From the NCBI GenBank assembly GCA_029228645.1, contig JAPTHR010000004.1:248001-312000 (forward strand): DNA of 64,000 nt, written 5' to 3'. The stretch is from Gammaproteobacteria bacterium Milos-ODIII6 (GTDB lineage: Bacteria; Pseudomonadota; Gammaproteobacteria; Chromatiales; Chromatiaceae). Position 1 is the stretch's first letter. Every line of letters begins with the position of its first letter. The position numbers were made by a program, and so were the translations under genes. Below the pieces are notes generated by a model. The model saw only the letters and a program-made list of their open reading frames with translations. It did not search any database and was not told the DNA's origin. This document shows positions 26,828 to 34,763 of the stretch, one piece after another.

Positions 26828-27448
26828 ATGCCTGATACCGGCAACGAAAACCCGCCCAGGCACAAAGGCGGAGCCGGCAAGCTGATCGCCGTGGTCGTGG
26901 TGCTCACCATCCTGGCCATCCTGCTGGTTCCGAGCCAGGATCCGGAGGAGCCCGTGAGCGTCGCCCCAACGGTCGACGGGGAGCCACCGAGCCTGCTCGC
27001 CCCCGACGCAGCCCAAACCGGCAGCGCGGTCACGCCGGCCCGCCCGGAAACGAGCCCTGAACCCGGTCCCGGTGGCGCGGCGCGATCGCTTATCCGCGAA
27101 CTGCGCGCCGATCCGCCCGTGGACCTGGAGCGCGCCTTTCGCGCCGGACAGGCATTCGAGGCCGAACAGCGGCGGGACGATGCCTACCTGATGTACTTCT
27201 TCGCGGCGCGCGAGGGACACGGCCCCTCCGCCCTGTTACTGGCTCGCCAGGCGGACCCGGCCACCTTCAGCAGCGACGGTCTGCTGGCAGCGCCGGACGA
27301 GCTGCAGGCCAACAAGTGGTATCAAGTCGCGAGCCGCTCCGGGGAGCCTGGCGCCGCCGAGGCGCTGCAGGCGCTGCGATCGCGGGTTGAGCAACAGGCG
27401 CTCGCCGGCGATCAGCGGGCGCGCCGAATCATGCTGCAATGGAAATAG
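26828..27448 (+). CDS. Single-pass membrane protein with a TPR/Sel1-like tail
   Basis: About 206 residues. A short basic cytoplasmic start, one transmembrane helix (LIAVVVVLTILAILLVP), a Pro/Thr-rich linker and a helical C-terminal domain (ERAFRAGQAFEAEQRRDDAYLMYFFAAREGHGPSALLLARQ...NKWYQVASRSGEPGAAEAL) with the spacing of Sel1/TPR repeats. No specific family was recognised. It ends 7 bp before the vWA gene, so the two are probably co-transcribed and may form a complex. The ATG at 26828 was chosen; GTG at 26810 is possible. Confidence 0.65.
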   Translation: MPDTGNENPPRHKGGAGKLIAVVVVLTILAILLVPSQDPEEPVSVAPTVDGEPPSLLAPDAAQTGSAVTPARPETSPEPGPGGAARSLIRELRADPPVDLERAFRAGQAFEAEQRRDDAYLMYFFAAREGHGPSALLLARQADPATFSSDGLLAAPDELQANKWYQVASRSGEPGAAEALQALRSRVEQQALAGDQRARRIMLQWK

Positions 27449-27455
27449 ACCGACC

Positions 27456-29414
27456 ATGAGACACCTCAAGCTGTTCATCCTGGCCGTCCTCGTGGCGCTG
27501 CTTTGCTCGCCTGCCCTGGCCGCCGACAAGATGCCGCTGCTGATGCCGGGCAAGACGGCGCTCTACCAGCGCATCCTGGTAGTTCCGGGAGGGGAGATGC
27601 ATTCCAAACCCGGCGAGGGTGGCGAGGCCACCGTCCCATTCACCGCTTACTACGTCTTTTCGCGCAGCAAAGTGGGCGACACCGAATGGGTCGAGGTCGG
27701 CACCAGCCGCTTCGACGCGGGCAAGGGCTGGCTCAAGGTCTCCGACACCATCGATTGGAACCAGGGTCTGACCGTGGCCTTTCGCGAGCCCAAGGCGCAT
27801 GACCGCGCGCTGCTCTTCCGCAGTGCCGAGAAGCTGCAGGAGGTCGCCAGCGATCGCGAACTGGAGAGCTACCAGGCGCTCTACCAGGCCGCGCTGGACG
27901 GGGTGATTGACAATGACTCCCCGGTCGTCGCCATCCAGCCACCGGGCCCACTGGATATCCAGGAAGATTTCTACCTGGTGCCGATCCTCGAACACAGGGA
28001 CATCTACCTCGGCAACGAGCAGGTGCGCATGCTGCGCGTCGCCAGTGTCCCGCTGTCCGACCCGCCGGCGGCTGAGAAACCCGTAGTCGCTGCGGAAAAG
28101 CAACAGGGCTACAACGCCGGCCTGACCTTCGTGATCGACTCCACGCTCTCGATGGACCCCTACATCGAGCGCACCCGCGAGGCGGTGATGAAGATCTACG
28201 ACAGCCTTGGCGATGCCGGGCTGCTCGGCAACGTCAACTTCGGCATGATCGCCTTCCGCGACGACCCCGGCAGTGTCCCCGCGCTGGGATACCGCAGCAG
28301 GACCTTCGTGACCCTGGAGCAGGGACGCAACCCGGGCACCTTCCTGGAACAGATCAACAATCTGCGGGCCGCCCGGGTCTCGAGCCGGGATTTCCGCGAG
28401 GATTCCTACGCCGGGATCGAGCGGGCGATCAACCGCATGGACTGGGATGGCCACGCGGCGCGCTATATCGTCCTGATCACCGATGCCGGACCACGCGATC
28501 CGGGCGACCCACTCTCCGGCACCGGACTCGACGCTACACAACTGTCGAAGCTGGCGCAGGAAAAGGGCGTCGCCATCTTCGTCATGCACCTGCTGACCCC
28601 CGCCACCAGGGCCGATCAGGAACGCGCCGCGGAGCGCTACCGCGACCTGTCCGAGTTTCCCGGCATCGGGAGCCTGTACTACGCGGTTCCAACCGGCGAC
28701 GTGGCCGAGTTCGGGCACGTGCTCGACACCCTGGCGGGGCAGATCACCATGCAGGTGAGAGTCGCCGCCACGGGACAGCCCCAGCCAAAATCGGTGGTCG
28801 AACCCGACGCCAATCCCCGACTGGCGGAACTGCAGAGCAAGGTCGCAAAACTGGGCTACGCCCTGCGCATGCGCTACCTGCGGCAGAGCGAGGGCGGCAG
28901 CATTCCACGCGTATTCAACGCCTGGCTGTTGGATCACGACATCCGGCGCCCGGAAATCCGCACCCTGGATGTTCAGGTGCTGCTCACCCGCGACCAGCTC
29001 TCCGACCTGCACGACATCCTGCGGCAGGTGCTCAACACGGCCGAAGAGGGGCTGCTGTCTCCTGACAACTTCCTGAACGAACTGAAGAGCCTGGCAGCGA
29101 CGATCGCGCGCGACCCGGAGGAGCTCGGCGAGACCACGGCGACCACCTCGGGCGAGGGCAACAGCCTCGCCGACCTCGGCTTCATGCGCGAGTACATCGA
29201 CGACCTGCCCTACACTGGCGAAGTCATGGCCCTCTCCCTGGCGGACTGGGAAACCTGGCCGGCGCGCGAGCAGATCGCCTTCCTGCAGCGCCTCGAAGAC
29301 AAGATCGCCTACTACCGCGCGTTGCACGACCATACCGACCTCTGGGTCAACCTCGACCGTGGAACGGTGAGCGGTGATTCGGTCTTCCCGGTACCACTGG
29401 AAATGCTTCCTTGA
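27456..29414 (+). CDS. Secreted vWA-domain protein resembling the tail of kinase PpkA
   Basis: 652 residues with a signal peptide (LFILAVLVALLCSPALA). An N-terminal domain (about 25-140; LLMPGKTALYQRILVVPGG) is followed by a vWA domain from about residue 220. Its MIDAS first motif is DSTLSM and the later metal residues are near TDAGPRD. The first part and the vWA region resemble the C-terminal half of PpkA, the type VI secretion Ser/Thr kinase, but no kinase domain is present here. The C-terminal 200 residues are helical. It sits between a membrane TPR-like gene and a CHAD gene in the same direction. The function is not established. Confidence 0.75.
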   Translation: MRHLKLFILAVLVALLCSPALAADKMPLLMPGKTALYQRILVVPGGEMHSKPGEGGEATVPFTAYYVFSRSKVGDTEWVEVGTSRFDAGKGWLKVSDTIDWNQGLTVAFREPKAHDRALLFRSAEKLQEVASDRELESYQALYQAALDGVIDNDSPVVAIQPPGPLDIQEDFYLVPILEHRDIYLGNEQVRMLRVASVPLSDPPAAEKPVVAAEKQQGYNAGLTFVIDSTLSMDPYIERTREAVMKIYDSLGDAGLLGNVNFGMIAFRDDPGSVPALGYRSRTFVTLEQGRNPGTFLEQINNLRAARVSSRDFREDSYAGIERAINRMDWDGHAARYIVLITDAGPRDPGDPLSGTGLDATQLSKLAQEKGVAIFVMHLLTPATRADQERAAERYRDLSEFPGIGSLYYAVPTGDVAEFGHVLDTLAGQITMQVRVAATGQPQPKSVVEPDANPRLAELQSKVAKLGYALRMRYLRQSEGGSIPRVFNAWLLDHDIRRPEIRTLDVQVLLTRDQLSDLHDILRQVLNTAEEGLLSPDNFLNELKSLAATIARDPEELGETTATTSGEGNSLADLGFMREYIDDLPYTGEVMALSLADWETWPAREQIAFLQRLEDKIAYYRALHDHTDLWVNLDRGTVSGDSVFPVPLEMLP

Positions 29415-29439
29415 GCATCACTGCGCAGGCCCGGCTCGC

Positions 29440-30273
29440 ATGCCTGCTCGTTTGAAAAAGCGGGAGCGGGTGGACCGGGGACTGCGGCGCGTCCTCGGGG
29501 AACAGGCCACCTCCGCCATCGACGCGCTCTCGGCAGCACCAGCAGAGCGCGAGCGTGGCATCCATGATTTTCGTGTCGGCTGCAAGCGCCTGCGCGCCAC
29601 CCTGCGCCTGTTGCAGGACGAAAGCCGCCCGATGGCCGCCATACTCAACCGCCAGATTGGCGACCTCGCGGCAGAGCTTTCCGCACTGCGCGACGCCGAC
29701 GCGATGATCGAGACCCTGGACGCCCTGCAGCAGAAGCACCCCGACTGGTTCGAGCAGAACGCCTACCTCAAGGCGCGTGAGCAGCTGCTCCAGCAACGCC
29801 AGCAAACCCAGGCGGAATCACCTGATTTCGCAAAGCTCGCACCTGATCTTCAGGAACGCATGCGCCTGCTCGGCCAGGAGCTGGCGCGCATCGATCTGCC
29901 CCGGCGCAAGCGGCACCTGCGCAAGGCCTTCGGTCGGACCCAGGCGCGCCTCGACAGCGCGGTTGCCAGGACACGACCGGGTCAGGCGGAGGACTTTCAC
30001 CGCTGGCGTAAACGGGTCAAGGACCTGCTCTACCAGGGGGAGCTGTTGCGCCGGATTCTCGATGACCACCCGAAACGCACCCAGCGCGCATTGGCGCAGC
30101 TGTCCAAGGTACTCGGGGAACACCACGACCTCGAGGTAATGGACCTGCTGTTCGTGGAGAACGGGCTGCTCGCCTCGGCGGAGGCCGCCGCATCATTCAG
30201 CACCACCCTGGCCAGACGAAAGCGGCGGCTCGAAGAAGAGGCGACCCGACTCTACAAAGATGTTCTGAGCTGA
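29440..30273 (+). CDS. CHAD-domain protein
   Basis: About 277 residues, nearly all one CHAD (conserved histidine alpha-helical) domain. HDFRVGCKRLRATLRLL near the start and FHRWRKRVKDLLYQGELL in the second half carry the conserved His and basic residues. CHAD domains bind inorganic polyphosphate. There is no CYTH triphosphatase domain fused to it. It begins 25 bp after the vWA gene and its end overlaps the convergent PRPP-synthetase-like gene by 22 bp. Confidence 0.88.
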   Translation: MPARLKKRERVDRGLRRVLGEQATSAIDALSAAPAERERGIHDFRVGCKRLRATLRLLQDESRPMAAILNRQIGDLAAELSALRDADAMIETLDALQQKHPDWFEQNAYLKAREQLLQQRQQTQAESPDFAKLAPDLQERMRLLGQELARIDLPRRKRHLRKAFGRTQARLDSAVARTRPGQAEDFHRWRKRVKDLLYQGELLRRILDDHPKRTQRALAQLSKVLGEHHDLEVMDLLFVENGLLASAEAAASFSTTLARRKRRLEEEATRLYKDVLS

Positions 30274-31127
30274 GCTGCCAGCAACGGCGCCAGGGATATC
30301 GCATTGCTTGCATGCGGGATGCTGTCGGTGCTCCAGATGTGCTCGAATCCGGCACGCTCAAGCCGCTCATAAGCATCGTCCGCGAACAGCGCATGCGTCA
30401 CGACCACCGAGATCGAGGCGGGTCCGGCGCGCGCAATGATCCCGCCCGCCACCTCCAGGGTATGCCCGGTGCTGGCCACATCGTCGACCAGCACCACATC
30501 GCGTCCGGCGAAATCCCCCTCCAGCCGGATCTCCACCTCGCGGTCCCCATGCCGCACCTTGTTGCCTATCACGAAGTCCAGGCCGGCGCGCGAGGCAGCG
30601 GCGGCGACCCACTGTGCGGATTCCGCATCCGGCCCAACCAGCAGTGCATCCGGCAGCCGACGCGCGAGAAAATCCGCGACCGATGTGGTCGCCAGCAGGG
30701 AGACACTGCGCCCGGTGGGCACCGCCTGTTCGATATCCCGGACCCGGTGCAAGTGTGGGTCGACCGTCACGAGCCCGTCGAAATAGCGCGCCAGCAGCGC
30801 CCCGACAATCCGCTGACTGACCGCCTCGCCCGGCTGAAAACTGCGGTCCTGGCGCATGTAGCACAGGTAGGGAGCGACCAGGGTCAGGGATTGCACCCCC
30901 AGGGCGCGTGCCTCGCCGGCCGCCAGGATCAGCTCCACCAGTTTGTCGTTCGGATGATCCAGGCTACGGCACAGCACGACCCCGTCCGGCAGGTCCGCGG
31001 GCAGACGGATGCGGCTCTCGCCATCCGGGAAACGGTGCACGTCGACCTCTGCATAGTCGAGACCGGCCGCCTCGGCCAGCGCGATGGACTGGCTCCGATA
31101 CTCGCGGAATCCGAGCAGCAGGCTCAC
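30252..31127 (-). CDS. PRPP synthetase-like enzyme (phosphoribosyltransferase fold)
   Basis: 291 residues homologous to ribose-phosphate pyrophosphokinase. Visible motifs are an N-terminal FREYRSQSIALAEAAGL, VDVHRFPDGES, APYLCYMRQDR (ATP-binding flexible loop), VDPHLHR (catalytic His) and the PRPP loop VLVDDVASTGHTL. It is shorter than housekeeping Prs (about 315), and the PRPP loop DDVASTG differs from the usual DDMIDTAGT. It starts with GTG one base after the stop of the phosphorylase gene, so the two are translationally coupled. Making PRPP or acting on ribose 1,5-bisphosphate are both possible; this is inference. Confidence 0.8.
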   Translation of the reverse strand: MSLLLGFREYRSQSIALAEAAGLDYAEVDVHRFPDGESRIRLPADLPDGVVLCRSLDHPNDKLVELILAAGEARALGVQSLTLVAPYLCYMRQDRSFQPGEAVSQRIVGALLARYFDGLVTVDPHLHRVRDIEQAVPTGRSVSLLATTSVADFLARRLPDALLVGPDAESAQWVAAAASRAGLDFVIGNKVRHGDREVEIRLEGDFAGRDVVLVDDVASTGHTLEVAGGIIARAGPASISVVVTHALFADDAYERLERAGFEHIWSTDSIPHASNAISLAPLLAAQLRTSL

Positions 31128-31128
31128 C

Positions 31129-32673
31129 TCAAACCACCAGGCCGTTGGACTGGCGCGGCGGGTCGCTGCCAATCCAGAAGCCGGAGTCCTTCTCCGCCAA
31201 GGCCACCGCGAAGCGGAAATCCGAGGGAAACTCGGCATGGATGCTGTACAACAACTCCCCCTTGCTGACGCGCTCGCCGAGCTTCTTGTTGAGATCGACG
31301 CCAGCCCCCTTGTCCATGGGAGCGCCGGCGAGGCGGGCTAGGTGGGCCATGCGCAGATTGTCGATTGCCGAGACATATCCACTGCGTGGCGCACAAACCT
31401 TTTTGCACAAGCGCCCCGGCGGGTAAGAGCGTGACGCGGCGCCCTGGGCCGAGACGATCGCCTTCATCTTCTCCAGGGCGCGCCCGGAGTCGAGGATGTC
31501 GCGCGCGACCGCATAGCCCTGTCCGCCACGGATATCGGGATCGAATTCGAGGATCCGCCCCGCCAGGCGCAGCGCTTTCTGACGCAGATCCTGGGGGGCG
31601 GCAGGATCATTCTCGAGCACCTGCATCACGTCGCGCAGCTCGAAATGCGGCCCGATGCCACGACCAACCGGCTGGGCTCCGTCGGTGATGATCACCTCGG
31701 TATGCAGGCCCATGCGATCGCCCACGTACTCGAACAGCTTGCGCAGCGCGACCGCATCCTGCATCCGGCGCACCTTGGCGGTCGGCCCCACCGGAATGTC
31801 GATCAACAGGTGGGTGGAACCCGCGGCCACCTTCTTCGCGAGGATCGAGGCGACCATCTGCCCCGGCGAGTCCATCGACAACGGTCGCTCCACCGAGATC
31901 AGGATGTCGTCCACCGGGGCCAGGCGCGCGGTTCCTCCCCAGGCGAGGCAGCCGCGATGCTGGCGCACGATACGGTGCAGGCGGGCGGGATTGAGATCCA
32001 CCTCGGCGAGCAACTCCATGGTGTCCGCGGTACCCGCTGGCGAGGTGATCGCGCGGCTCGAGGTCTTGGGTATGAGCATGCCGTGCGCCGCCACGATGGG
32101 CACCAGCAACATGCTGGTGCGATTGCCCGGGATGCCACCGATACAGTGCTTGTCCGCGACCAGCGGCTCGCCCCAGTCGAGCCGCTCCCCGGTGGCCACC
32201 ATGGCGTGCGTCAAAGACAGGACCTCCTCGCGCGTGAGGCCGCTGTGCGAGCAGGAGACCAGGAAGGCCGCCATCTCCATCTTGGAGTAGCGGTTGTCGG
32301 CGATGTCGCGGGCGAGTTCGAGAAACTCCTGGTCGCTCAGGACCTCGCCAGCGATCTTGCGGTGCACTGCCGCCAGAGAGGCCGGCGGCTCGGCGTGCGC
32401 CACGCGCACGGCGCGCCCCTCCTTGAGGCCGAGCTGCTCGAAGGCCTGCTCGCTCAGGCCGAGTTCGTCCGGGGCAATGATGGCGCCGTTATCGACCACG
32501 TTGAGCACCGCCAGGATGCGCTTCCTCCCGGCACCGATCTCGATCTTGGCGAGCGCCTGAAAACCCTCGGCACGGTAGGCCTCGCAATCGCGATGCATGT
32601 AGGCCACGTTCTCGCGGAAGGTGTCGATCGCGATCCGGCGGAGCTTGAGTGTCTGCCTGCTCTTGCTTGGCAT
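31129..32673 (-). CDS. Archaeal-type AMP / thymidine phosphorylase
   Basis: 514 residues of the DeoA-like family that includes archaeal AMP phosphorylase. There is an extra N-terminal β-domain of about 85 residues ([19 protein letters not shown]...), then the nucleoside-phosphorylase fold with [39 protein letters not shown] and the C-terminal HAEFPSDF. The archaeal enzyme releases the base from AMP, CMP or UMP and gives ribose 1,5-bisphosphate. The coupling to a PRPP-synthetase-like gene fits nucleotide turnover. The phosphorylase activity itself is likely, but the substrate cannot be read from sequence. Confidence 0.85.
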
Positions 32674-32796: not shown

Positions 32797-33558
32797 GTGA
32801 GCACTGTTTCGTTCAGGCCATCGCACGACAAGGGCATCATCTACCACCTGCGTAACGTGGTCCTGGACCGCGAATCGCAGGGCATTTCCTTTCGCCTGAA
32901 CGTCCCCACCCTGCAGATTGCACAGGGGGAGAAAATCGCGCTCATCGGCGAGTCCGGCTGCGGCAAGTCCACCCTGCTCGATATCCTGGCGTTCATCGCC
33001 CAACCGACCGAAATCGGCGCCTTCCGCTTTCGCCCGGTCAACACCGGCGAACCGATCGACATTGGCCAGCATTGGAAAAAACGCCAGCTCAACCGGCTGG
33101 GCGAGTTGCGCAAGCGTCATATCGGTTACGTCATGCAGACCGGCGGCCTGCTCCCCTACCTGACCGTGCGTGACAACATGAACCTGACCCGCAGCGTGCT
33201 CGGGCTGCGCGGCGAGGAGACCACCGAAGAACTTGCTCGCGAGCTGGGCATTGCGCGTCACCTCGACAAGCTCCCGGAGACGCTCTCAACCGGCGAACGC
33301 CAGCGGGTGGCGATCGGACGCGCGCTCGCGCATGAGCCCTCGATCGTGATCGCAGACGAACCGACCGCCTCTGTCGACCCATTCGCCGCGGAGAAGATCA
33401 TGTCCCTGTTCATCGGGCTCGCCGAGGAGCGCAATATCACCGTGATCGTGGCCAGTCATGCGTGGCGCCACATCAAACGTCTCGGCCTGCGCAGGCTCGC
33501 GCACCACACCCAACGCTCCAAGGACGGCAGTACCACCGAAACCGTGGTGAACGGCTGA
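32797..33558 (+). CDS. ABC transporter ATPase, LolD/MacB-like
   Basis: 253 residues. It has Walker A GESGCGKST, the Q-loop in VMQTGGLLPYLTV, signature LSTGERQR, Walker B IVIADEP and the switch His in VASHAWR. It is most similar in layout to LolD/FtsE-type ATPases that work with four-helix permeases, with an extra N-terminal stretch. It starts with GTG. The stop overlaps the permease ATG by one base, so the two are one unit. Possible roles are lipoprotein release or export of a small molecule; it is not the canonical lol operon. Confidence 0.85.
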   Translation: MSTVSFRPSHDKGIIYHLRNVVLDRESQGISFRLNVPTLQIAQGEKIALIGESGCGKSTLLDILAFIAQPTEIGAFRFRPVNTGEPIDIGQHWKKRQLNRLGELRKRHIGYVMQTGGLLPYLTVRDNMNLTRSVLGLRGEETTEELARELGIARHLDKLPETLSTGERQRVAIGRALAHEPSIVIADEPTASVDPFAAEKIMSLFIGLAEERNITVIVASHAWRHIKRLGLRRLAHHTQRSKDGSTTETVVNG

Positions 33559-34763
33559 TGAAAGCATTTCGCACCCTCCGCCTGGCCACCCGCGACTACC
33601 GCCACGAATGGCAGATGTCGGGCTGTTTCGTACTCGCCCTGGCGGCCGTGCTCGGCCCCATGCTGGTGCTGTTCGGCCTGAAATTCGGGATCATCGGGGG
33701 CATGCTCGAGCAGCTGATCGAAGATCCCGCCAACCGCGAGATACGCACGGTCGGCAGCGCCCGTTTCGAGAGCGTGTGGCTGGACGGCCTGCGCAAGCGC
33801 CCGGACGTGGCCTTTCTGATGCCGCGCACCCGCAGCATTGCGGCCACCCTGCAGCTCAAGAGCGGCGCCAGCGCGAGCATCCTGACCGCCGAAATGATCC
33901 CCTCCGGGCACGCCGACCCGCTCCTGAGGGAAGGTGCACCGGCGCCCACCGGCCTGGCTAAACTGGTGCTTTCGCAGAGCGCCGCGGAAAAGCTGGGGGT
34001 GGGCCCGGGCGACCGTATCGACGGCAGCCTGGCGCGGCTGTACCGCGGCAAACGCGAGCGCGTCCATCTCGACCTGGAGGTGCTGGACGTGGCGCCGGTG
34101 GCGGCATTCGGCCGCGACGGCGCCTTCGTGGACCTGCGCCTGCTCGAGGCGCTCGAGGATTTCCGCGACGGCAACGCGGTCCCGGCCCTCGGCTGGGAGG
34201 GCGCCGATCCGGTCGGCGATCGGACCTACCCGAGCTTTCGCCTGTACGCACGCTCGATCTACGACGTGGCCCCGCTCAAGCGGCTGCTGAACAGCCAGGG
34301 CATCGAAGTCCGCACGCGCGCCGGCGACATCGAACTGGTAATGCGGATCGATCGCAACCTGAGCACCATCTACTGGGCGATCGCCATCATCGGCCTGATC
34401 GGCTTCTCCCTGTCGCTGGGCGCCAGCCTGTGGGCCAACGTGGATCGCAAACGCAAGGAGCTCTCGGTACTCCGCCTGGTGGGATTCCGCACCGGTGACA
34501 TCGTGTGGTTCCCGATCATTCAGGCCTTCTATACCGCGCTGCTGGGCTGGGCGCTGGCGATCGGCATCTACCAGGCCGCCGCGATCGCGATCAACAACAT
34601 GCTCAGCGAGCAGATGGCGGCGGGCCAGCTGGTATGCGTGCTGCTGCCACAGCATTATCTCGCGGCCGGGGTCATCACCGTGGTGTCGGCGGTGATCGCC
34701 GCTGCCCTTGCGGGGATACGCTCAGCACGCATCGAGCCATCGGAAGGATTGCGCGAAATCTGA
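33558..34763 (+). CDS. ABC transporter permease, MacB/FtsX-type
   Basis: 401 residues. One transmembrane helix near 20-42, a large periplasmic domain (about 45-270) and three helices near the C terminus (YWAIAIIGLIGFSLSLGASL; IVWFPIIQAFYTALLGWALA; YLAAGVITVVSAVIAAALAG). It ends in ARIEPSEGLREI, the usual end of MacB-type permeases. Such transporters drive periplasmic conformational work rather than carry substrate across the membrane. It is coupled to the ATPase gene before it. Confidence 0.82.
   Translation: MKAFRTLRLATRDYRHEWQMSGCFVLALAAVLGPMLVLFGLKFGIIGGMLEQLIEDPANREIRTVGSARFESVWLDGLRKRPDVAFLMPRTRSIAATLQLKSGASASILTAEMIPSGHADPLLREGAPAPTGLAKLVLSQSAAEKLGVGPGDRIDGSLARLYRGKRERVHLDLEVLDVAPVAAFGRDGAFVDLRLLEALEDFRDGNAVPALGWEGADPVGDRTYPSFRLYARSIYDVAPLKRLLNSQGIEVRTRAGDIELVMRIDRNLSTIYWAIAIIGLIGFSLSLGASLWANVDRKRKELSVLRLVGFRTGDIVWFPIIQAFYTALLGWALAIGIYQAAAIAINNMLSEQMAAGQLVCVLLPQHYLAAGVITVVSAVIAAALAGIRSARIEPSEGLREI

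Follow-up and report, generated by a model that had tools for sequence, protein, structure and literature searches.

Genes of the stalk-vWA-TagT-TagS set

The window analyzed here is a 64,000-nucleotide stretch of DNA from Gammaproteobacteria bacterium Milos-ODIII6 (contig JAPTHR010000004.1, positions 248,001 to 312,000), part of contig 20 in a genome of 3.53 Mb. It encodes a membrane-bound stalk protein (P0001), a secreted von Willebrand factor A (vWA) protein (P0002) and, further downstream on the same strand, an ATP-binding cassette (ABC) ATPase and an FtsX-type permease that resemble TagT and TagS of the PpkA-TagQRST pathway of type VI secretion systems (T6SSs). We propose that these four genes probably represent the receptor half of that pathway without its kinase, TagR or the T6SS, forming an ATP-driven trans-envelope module independent of T6SSs. 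The genes of the module are as follows:

26828-27448, plus strand: stalk protein P0001, a membrane protein of 206 amino acids
27456-29414, plus strand: P0002, a secreted vWA protein of the PpkA type, 652 amino acids
32797-33558, plus strand: TagT-type ABC ATPase with a GTG start (Pfam ABC_tran, E = 2.4e-27)
33558-34763, plus strand: TagS-type FtsX-like permease (Pfam FtsX, E = 3.5e-11)

The AlphaFold model of P0001 contained one transmembrane (TM) helix (residues 16-32) and, from residue 83 to 205, a helical domain that is Sel1/TPR-like, with a mean predicted local distance difference test score of 95-99 per ten-residue block from residue 81 onward. The model suggests a short cytoplasmic tail followed by the TM helix, a linker and a periplasmic Sel1-like repeat domain; no kinase domain was found in P0001. 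Searches by sequence and by fold both returned Sel1/TPR proteins, with weak E values in the case of the fold search. We read a match to MerG (NCBIfam, E = 2e-5, far under the cut-off of that family) as a sign of shared repeats.

P0002 begins with what we judged by eye to be a signal sequence. Its Pfam match to VWA_4 (E = 4e-5) was under Pfam's cut-off, and neither the protein nor its profile had a meaningful match among PDB sequences. At the level of structure, residues 217-471 of the P0002 model matched the integrin alpha2 I domain (Z = 18.8, root mean square deviation = 2.6, 189 aligned residues); the vWA domain itself spans residues ~217-435, and the aligned rows extend to 471. Residues D228, T230, S232 and D343 were invariant in all 53 aligned sequences and, judged by the vWA motif, would form a MIDAS-like metal site.

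The ABC ATPase and permease genes (32797-34763) start 3.4 kb downstream of P0002. Their ABC_tran and FtsX matches were both above the Pfam cut-off, and the TagS ATG overlaps the end of the TagT gene by one base. Both Walker motifs (A and B) and an LSxGExQR signature are present in the ATPase. Of 68 TagT sequences, all 68 kept Walker B and 67 kept Walker A.

Conservation of the four genes and the place of the CHAD gene

We surveyed 146 genomes of the family, defining a window-type vWA protein as a match to P0002 at no less than 50% identity. P0002 had matches in 77 of the 146 genomes and window-type matches in 43, a count that does not include G013 (40% complete, its pieces containing stops). 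Wide neighborhoods, fetched for 40 of the 43 and scanned by phmmer, showed that the stalk gene preceded the vWA gene in 40/40 loci and that TagT and TagS followed it in 39/40; the remaining locus (L038) ends with its contig, and a 66% identical TagS lies on another contig of the same genome. A further set consisted of 80 named loci, the best 80 matches of a scan; 74 of them were of the window type, and 54 of these 74 had enough sequence on both sides. The order stalk-vWA-TagT-TagS was present in 53 of these 54, the exception (L100) having a 70% identical TagS elsewhere in its genome. No SUMF1, kinase, SrfB, SrfC or CHAD gene was found in any of the 74 window-type loci, 20 of which had short flanks. 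In a survey of the class, 32 of 369 genomes matched P0002, many of them in other families, and six loci from this survey at 49% identity or more (L204 to L209) each carried all four genes. Phage records gave no vWA match.

Furthermore, TagS was present at no less than 56% identity in all 43 family genomes with a window-type vWA protein (as a fragment in three) and in none of the 103 other family genomes, where the best match reached 51% identity. This co-occurrence persisted where the set is split, that is, in the genus of the window and in L100. These results indicate that the vWA protein and TagS co-occur independently of adjacency.

In the window, the interval between P0002 and TagT holds genes that do not belong to the module:

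29440 (ATG) to 30273, plus strand: CHAD protein (Pfam CHAD, E = 9.5e-30), a neighbor outside the module
30252-32673, minus strand: two overlapping genes between P0002 and TagT, as given in the next two lines
30252-31238, minus strand: phosphoribosyl pyrophosphate-synthase-like gene, named by eye
31129-32673, minus strand: thymidine-phosphorylase-like gene, named by eye

The minus-strand pair separated vWA from TagT in five of six examined members of the genus, among them the window, and in the phmmer scan it did not lie between them in the other family loci.

The original prediction suggested that P0001, P0002 and the CHAD protein could form an envelope unit linking vWA-based adhesion or chelation to polyphosphate. 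Its description of the genes was accurate: the three are closely spaced on one strand (intergenic gaps of 7 and 25 nucleotides), and they encode a single-pass membrane protein, a secreted vWA protein and a genuine CHAD protein, as the model, the signal sequence and integrin fold match, and the Pfam hit show. The likeness of the vWA protein to the C-terminal part of PpkA and the lack of a kinase or T6SS gene nearby were also upheld, as detailed below. A promoter scan was uninformative, with one promoter found and 1.0 expected from a shuffle. The proposed unit itself fared differently. When the open reading frames of 66 loci and the window were searched, the only CHAD matches were the window itself and the copy of this locus in its genome, and CHAD stood beside the module in none of the 74 further named loci. 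The adjacency of P0001 and P0002 is thus conserved and that of CHAD is not; CHAD adjoins the module in the window species only and looks like a passenger next to it. As a conserved unit the trio is refuted, and we regard the three-protein model as very improbable in spite of the tight spacing in the window. The polyphosphate link falls with it, because CHAD is not part of the module. What stands is the idea of an envelope module with a conserved neighborhood, which the locus probably does encode, with TagT and TagS, overlooked at the time, as its members instead of CHAD.

Relation to kinase-bearing and Srf-type clusters

As a yardstick for comparison with T6SSs, we used the annotated T6SS locus of Tistrella plasmid pTM1, in which the genes run phosphatase-kinase-vWA-ABC ATPase-FtsX permease-SUMF1 and the vWA protein is encoded next to a Ser/Thr kinase. 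Identities to the Tistrella proteins were 35% for P0002 over its full length, 44% for TagT and 40% for TagS. The gene order in Tistrella is that of PpkA-TagT-TagS-TagR, where we take TagR to be of the SUMF1 type and the order to match that of Pseudomonas aeruginosa. TagQ, the lipoprotein of the pathway, is small and poorly conserved.

Next, we asked how the stalk relates to the kinases, using a profile of the last 130 residues of 40 stalk proteins. This profile aligned with the C-terminal tails of six kinases that are encoded beside vWA-TagT-TagS-SUMF1 (hhalign probability = 99.4, E = 3e-21, 103 columns) and with the stalks of SrfABC clusters (probability = 98.6, E = 6e-16). As controls, an unrelated Sel1-repeat kinase of the window genome aligned over 31 columns with E = 7.5e-5, and the kinase tails in 20 column-shuffled versions gave E values of 0.077-0.82. 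A profile search recovered all six kinases (E = 1.7e-9 to 2.5e-17); it also matched frames not labeled as kinases at L067, L068, L064 and L060 and, weakly, the kinase L189 of the window genome. What precedes the tail differed among the three kinds of loci. In kinase loci it is a kinase, with a TM helix in four of the six by a simple scale; in Srf loci it is a different N-terminal part of ~130-180 residues plus a TM helix; and in window-type loci the open frame before the TM helix allows at most 47 residues in 29 of 40. Because the stalk is homologous to the kinase tails and has no kinase, P0001 and P0002 together, judged by their sequences, correspond to the periplasmic (extracytoplasmic) half of PpkA in a headless form. 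The vWA domain of PpkA is described as extracytoplasmic in PMC3224232, and PMC1262709 also describes a vWA domain in PpkA.

The module therefore shares with PpkA-TagQRST a homologous vWA protein, TagT, TagS and the periplasmic repeat domain of the stalk, all in the same order. It differs in that the stalk and the vWA protein are encoded by two genes, neither with a head, in that there is no kinase or adjoining SUMF1/TagR gene, and in that the genus members examined lack TssC. We found no TagR, SrfABC, T6SS or kinase genes near the module in the window. None of the six examined members of the genus, among them the window genome, had TssC (PF05943). Over the family, TssC occurred in 14 of the 43 genomes that carry the module and in 38 of the 103 that do not (Fisher P value = 0.71). 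A link between the module and T6SS was rejected on this lack of association over 146 genomes. TagR may be supplied in trans in the genus, since SUMF1-family proteins occur elsewhere in the genome in all eight of the genus genomes searched. A search of the complete genome of the window with PF07520 (Srf) found nothing, and control genomes were equally silent.

On the plasmids examined, relatives of P0002 lay mainly in two settings, a Srf-type cluster or, in Tistrella, the T6SS locus. In the former (Klebsiella, Cereibacter and Gluconobacter), the genes run SrfB-SrfC-[stalk]-vWA-ABC ATPase-ABC permease-SUMF1 or similar; a Thiodictyon plasmid had the vWA protein and the ATPase (TagT) only. A relative of P0002 occurred in 125 plasmid records, of which 114 were from Klebsiella, and the one Klebsiella plasmid that we opened carried a srfABC-stalk-vWA-TagT-TagS-SUMF1 run. 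Such srfABC-tag clusters have the stalk-vWA-TagT-TagS core in common with the window, can occur without a T6SS, and in six named Srf loci had no kinase gene that we could find beside the core. In contrast to the window type, they possess SrfA/B/C, SUMF1 and a stalk with an extra N-terminal part. Earlier work reports, in host-associated Deltaproteobacteria, a srfABC cluster with tagQ, ppkA and mostly tagR/S/T, mostly without T6SS machinery (PMC3608642), and mentions T6SS control genes near srfABC in Xenorhabdus (PMC6950479). A srfABC-tagQRST-ppkA cluster without a T6SS was thus already known; the headless form, without kinase, TagR and Srf, was not found in the open-access literature searched.

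Proposed role and competing explanations

The proposal that stalk, vWA protein, TagT and TagS are a kinase-free receptor half draws on sequence for the content and order of the genes, the homology of the four parts to PpkA, TagT and TagS, and the intact ATPase motifs. It draws further on the vWA fold with its residues resembling a metal site, on the missing cytoplasmic head and on the co-occurrence of vWA and TagS across genomes. Related clusters do carry a head, a kinase in T6SS loci and another kind of head in SrfABC loci. In the window, TagT2-TagS2 in the inner membrane would act as a mechanotransmission ABC system of the MacB/LolCDE/FtsEX kind, the stalk would anchor the vWA protein at the membrane, and the vWA protein would use its metal site to bind a periplasmic ligand or partner. 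ATP hydrolysis could then reshape the periplasmic complex, either in response to the state of the outer envelope or acting upon it. Given that no cytoplasmic domain is attached to the stalk, the output is most likely confined to the envelope, with no phosphorylation signal.

The chromosomal surroundings bear on where such a module might act. The module occurs in more than one context, with metH and an endonuclease I gene in the relatives of the window. In 18 of the 74 named loci (L129, L134, L138, L139, L142, L144, L145, L146, L148, L149, L151, L153 and six more), it directly follows an lptE-like gene in a co-directional leuS-lptE-[module] run. holA comes after the module in 12 of these 18; five contigs end shortly past the module, and one case is unclear. 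Pfam recognized LptE in 6 of the 18 members and also recognized LeuS, HolA and Lnt, for each of which one representative was scanned. The leuS-lptE-holA run is usually continuous, and we read this context as an insertion of the four-gene unit into an existing run. As for the pathway itself, TagQRST-PpkA is described in PMC11881912, PMC6657622 and PMC12607579, and the first of these reports that damage to the outer membrane triggers its response. This damage sensing and the lptE context point to the outer envelope, without amounting to proof. More tentatively, the unit could be a stand-alone machine for outer-envelope integrity that is unconnected with secretion; T6SS and SrfABC clusters would have fitted cytoplasmic heads to it for sensing, the headless form would be the core, and PpkA signaling would be derived.

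Several points weigh against the receptor-half proposal. The yardstick was the Tistrella locus and not PpkA of P. aeruginosa itself. A plain BLASTP search with P0001 found nothing in the Tistrella kinase (E = 3.1), and therefore the link between P0001 and the kinase tails rests on profiles. The lptE context covers only 18 of the 74 loci and may reflect a single insertion. Moreover, a kinase might act in trans, some Pkinase match occurring in 138 of the 146 family genomes and a Sel1-repeat kinase, L189, in the window genome.

A rather unlikely alternative is that TagTS is a transporter proper, moving a lipoprotein, lipid or peptide in the manner of LolCDE or MacB, with the vWA protein and stalk as periplasmic acceptors or chaperones. 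The module does share ABC_tran and FtsX domains and a periplasmic partner protein, here a vWA protein, with MacB/LolCDE/FtsEX; its nearest solved relatives by sequence include MacB and LolC, all weak (E = 0.02-0.07), and some of the loci have lptE and lnt in one run with it. However, the ATPase scored far below the family cut-offs of both LolD (124.7 versus 307.75 bits) and FtsE (121 versus 265 bits). In T6SS loci, moreover, this ABC pair adjoins a kinase, and according to PMC6657622 TagS and TagT of P. aeruginosa act in signaling, their loss only weakening T6SS assembly.

That the module signals through a kinase encoded elsewhere and recruited in trans to the stalk or the vWA protein seems improbable, the widespread Pkinase matches and L189 notwithstanding. 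L189, an open frame of 448 residues on contig 22 of the window genome, combines a Pkinase domain with Sel1 repeats and lacks a TM segment. Three genomes that retain the module, G041, G082 and G109, showed no counterpart of L189 among their kinases. Across these three genomes and that of the window, none of nine kinase loci joined a TM helix to a stalk-type domain, and one of the nine, L189, had Sel1 repeats, so that such a kinase was confined to the window genome.

The missing kinase, TagR and T6SS and the split set in the genus might suggest that the genes are what is left, in decay, of a T6SS sensor that lost its weapon. This is highly improbable given that catalytic motifs are kept in nearly all sequences, that vWA and TagS are co-retained in 43/43 genomes and that one clade is spread over several families.

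A lineage that retains these four genes together with no kinase, TagR or T6SS offers a natural minimal system for the activity of the ABC part on its own. It also shows that an annotation referring to PpkA or to T6SS control does not have to imply a T6SS.

An unrooted tree of 73 vWA proteins, built by a quick maximum-likelihood method, placed the 41 window-type rows on one side of a branch with an SH-aLRT support of 100 and the ten rows of the kinase group on one side of another (SH-aLRT = 98); the third group, Srf or other, includes loci of unclear type. Because the tree is unrooted, loss and gain of the kinase are both possible. The kinase group includes L056, L058, L059 and L072, whose vWA proteins fall in this clade and which have no detected adjoining kinase gene. 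Two further loci, L201 (in G238) and L067 (in G012), carry a short stalk, vWA, TagT, TagS and SUMF1, with no Srf or kinase gene detected, and possibly represent an intermediate state between the forms. Finally, L161 and L162, two copies in one metagenome-assembled genome labeled Rhodospirillaceae, grouped in the tree with one Woeseiaceae and one other gammaproteobacterial metagenome-assembled genome, a placement that may reflect transfer or mis-binning.

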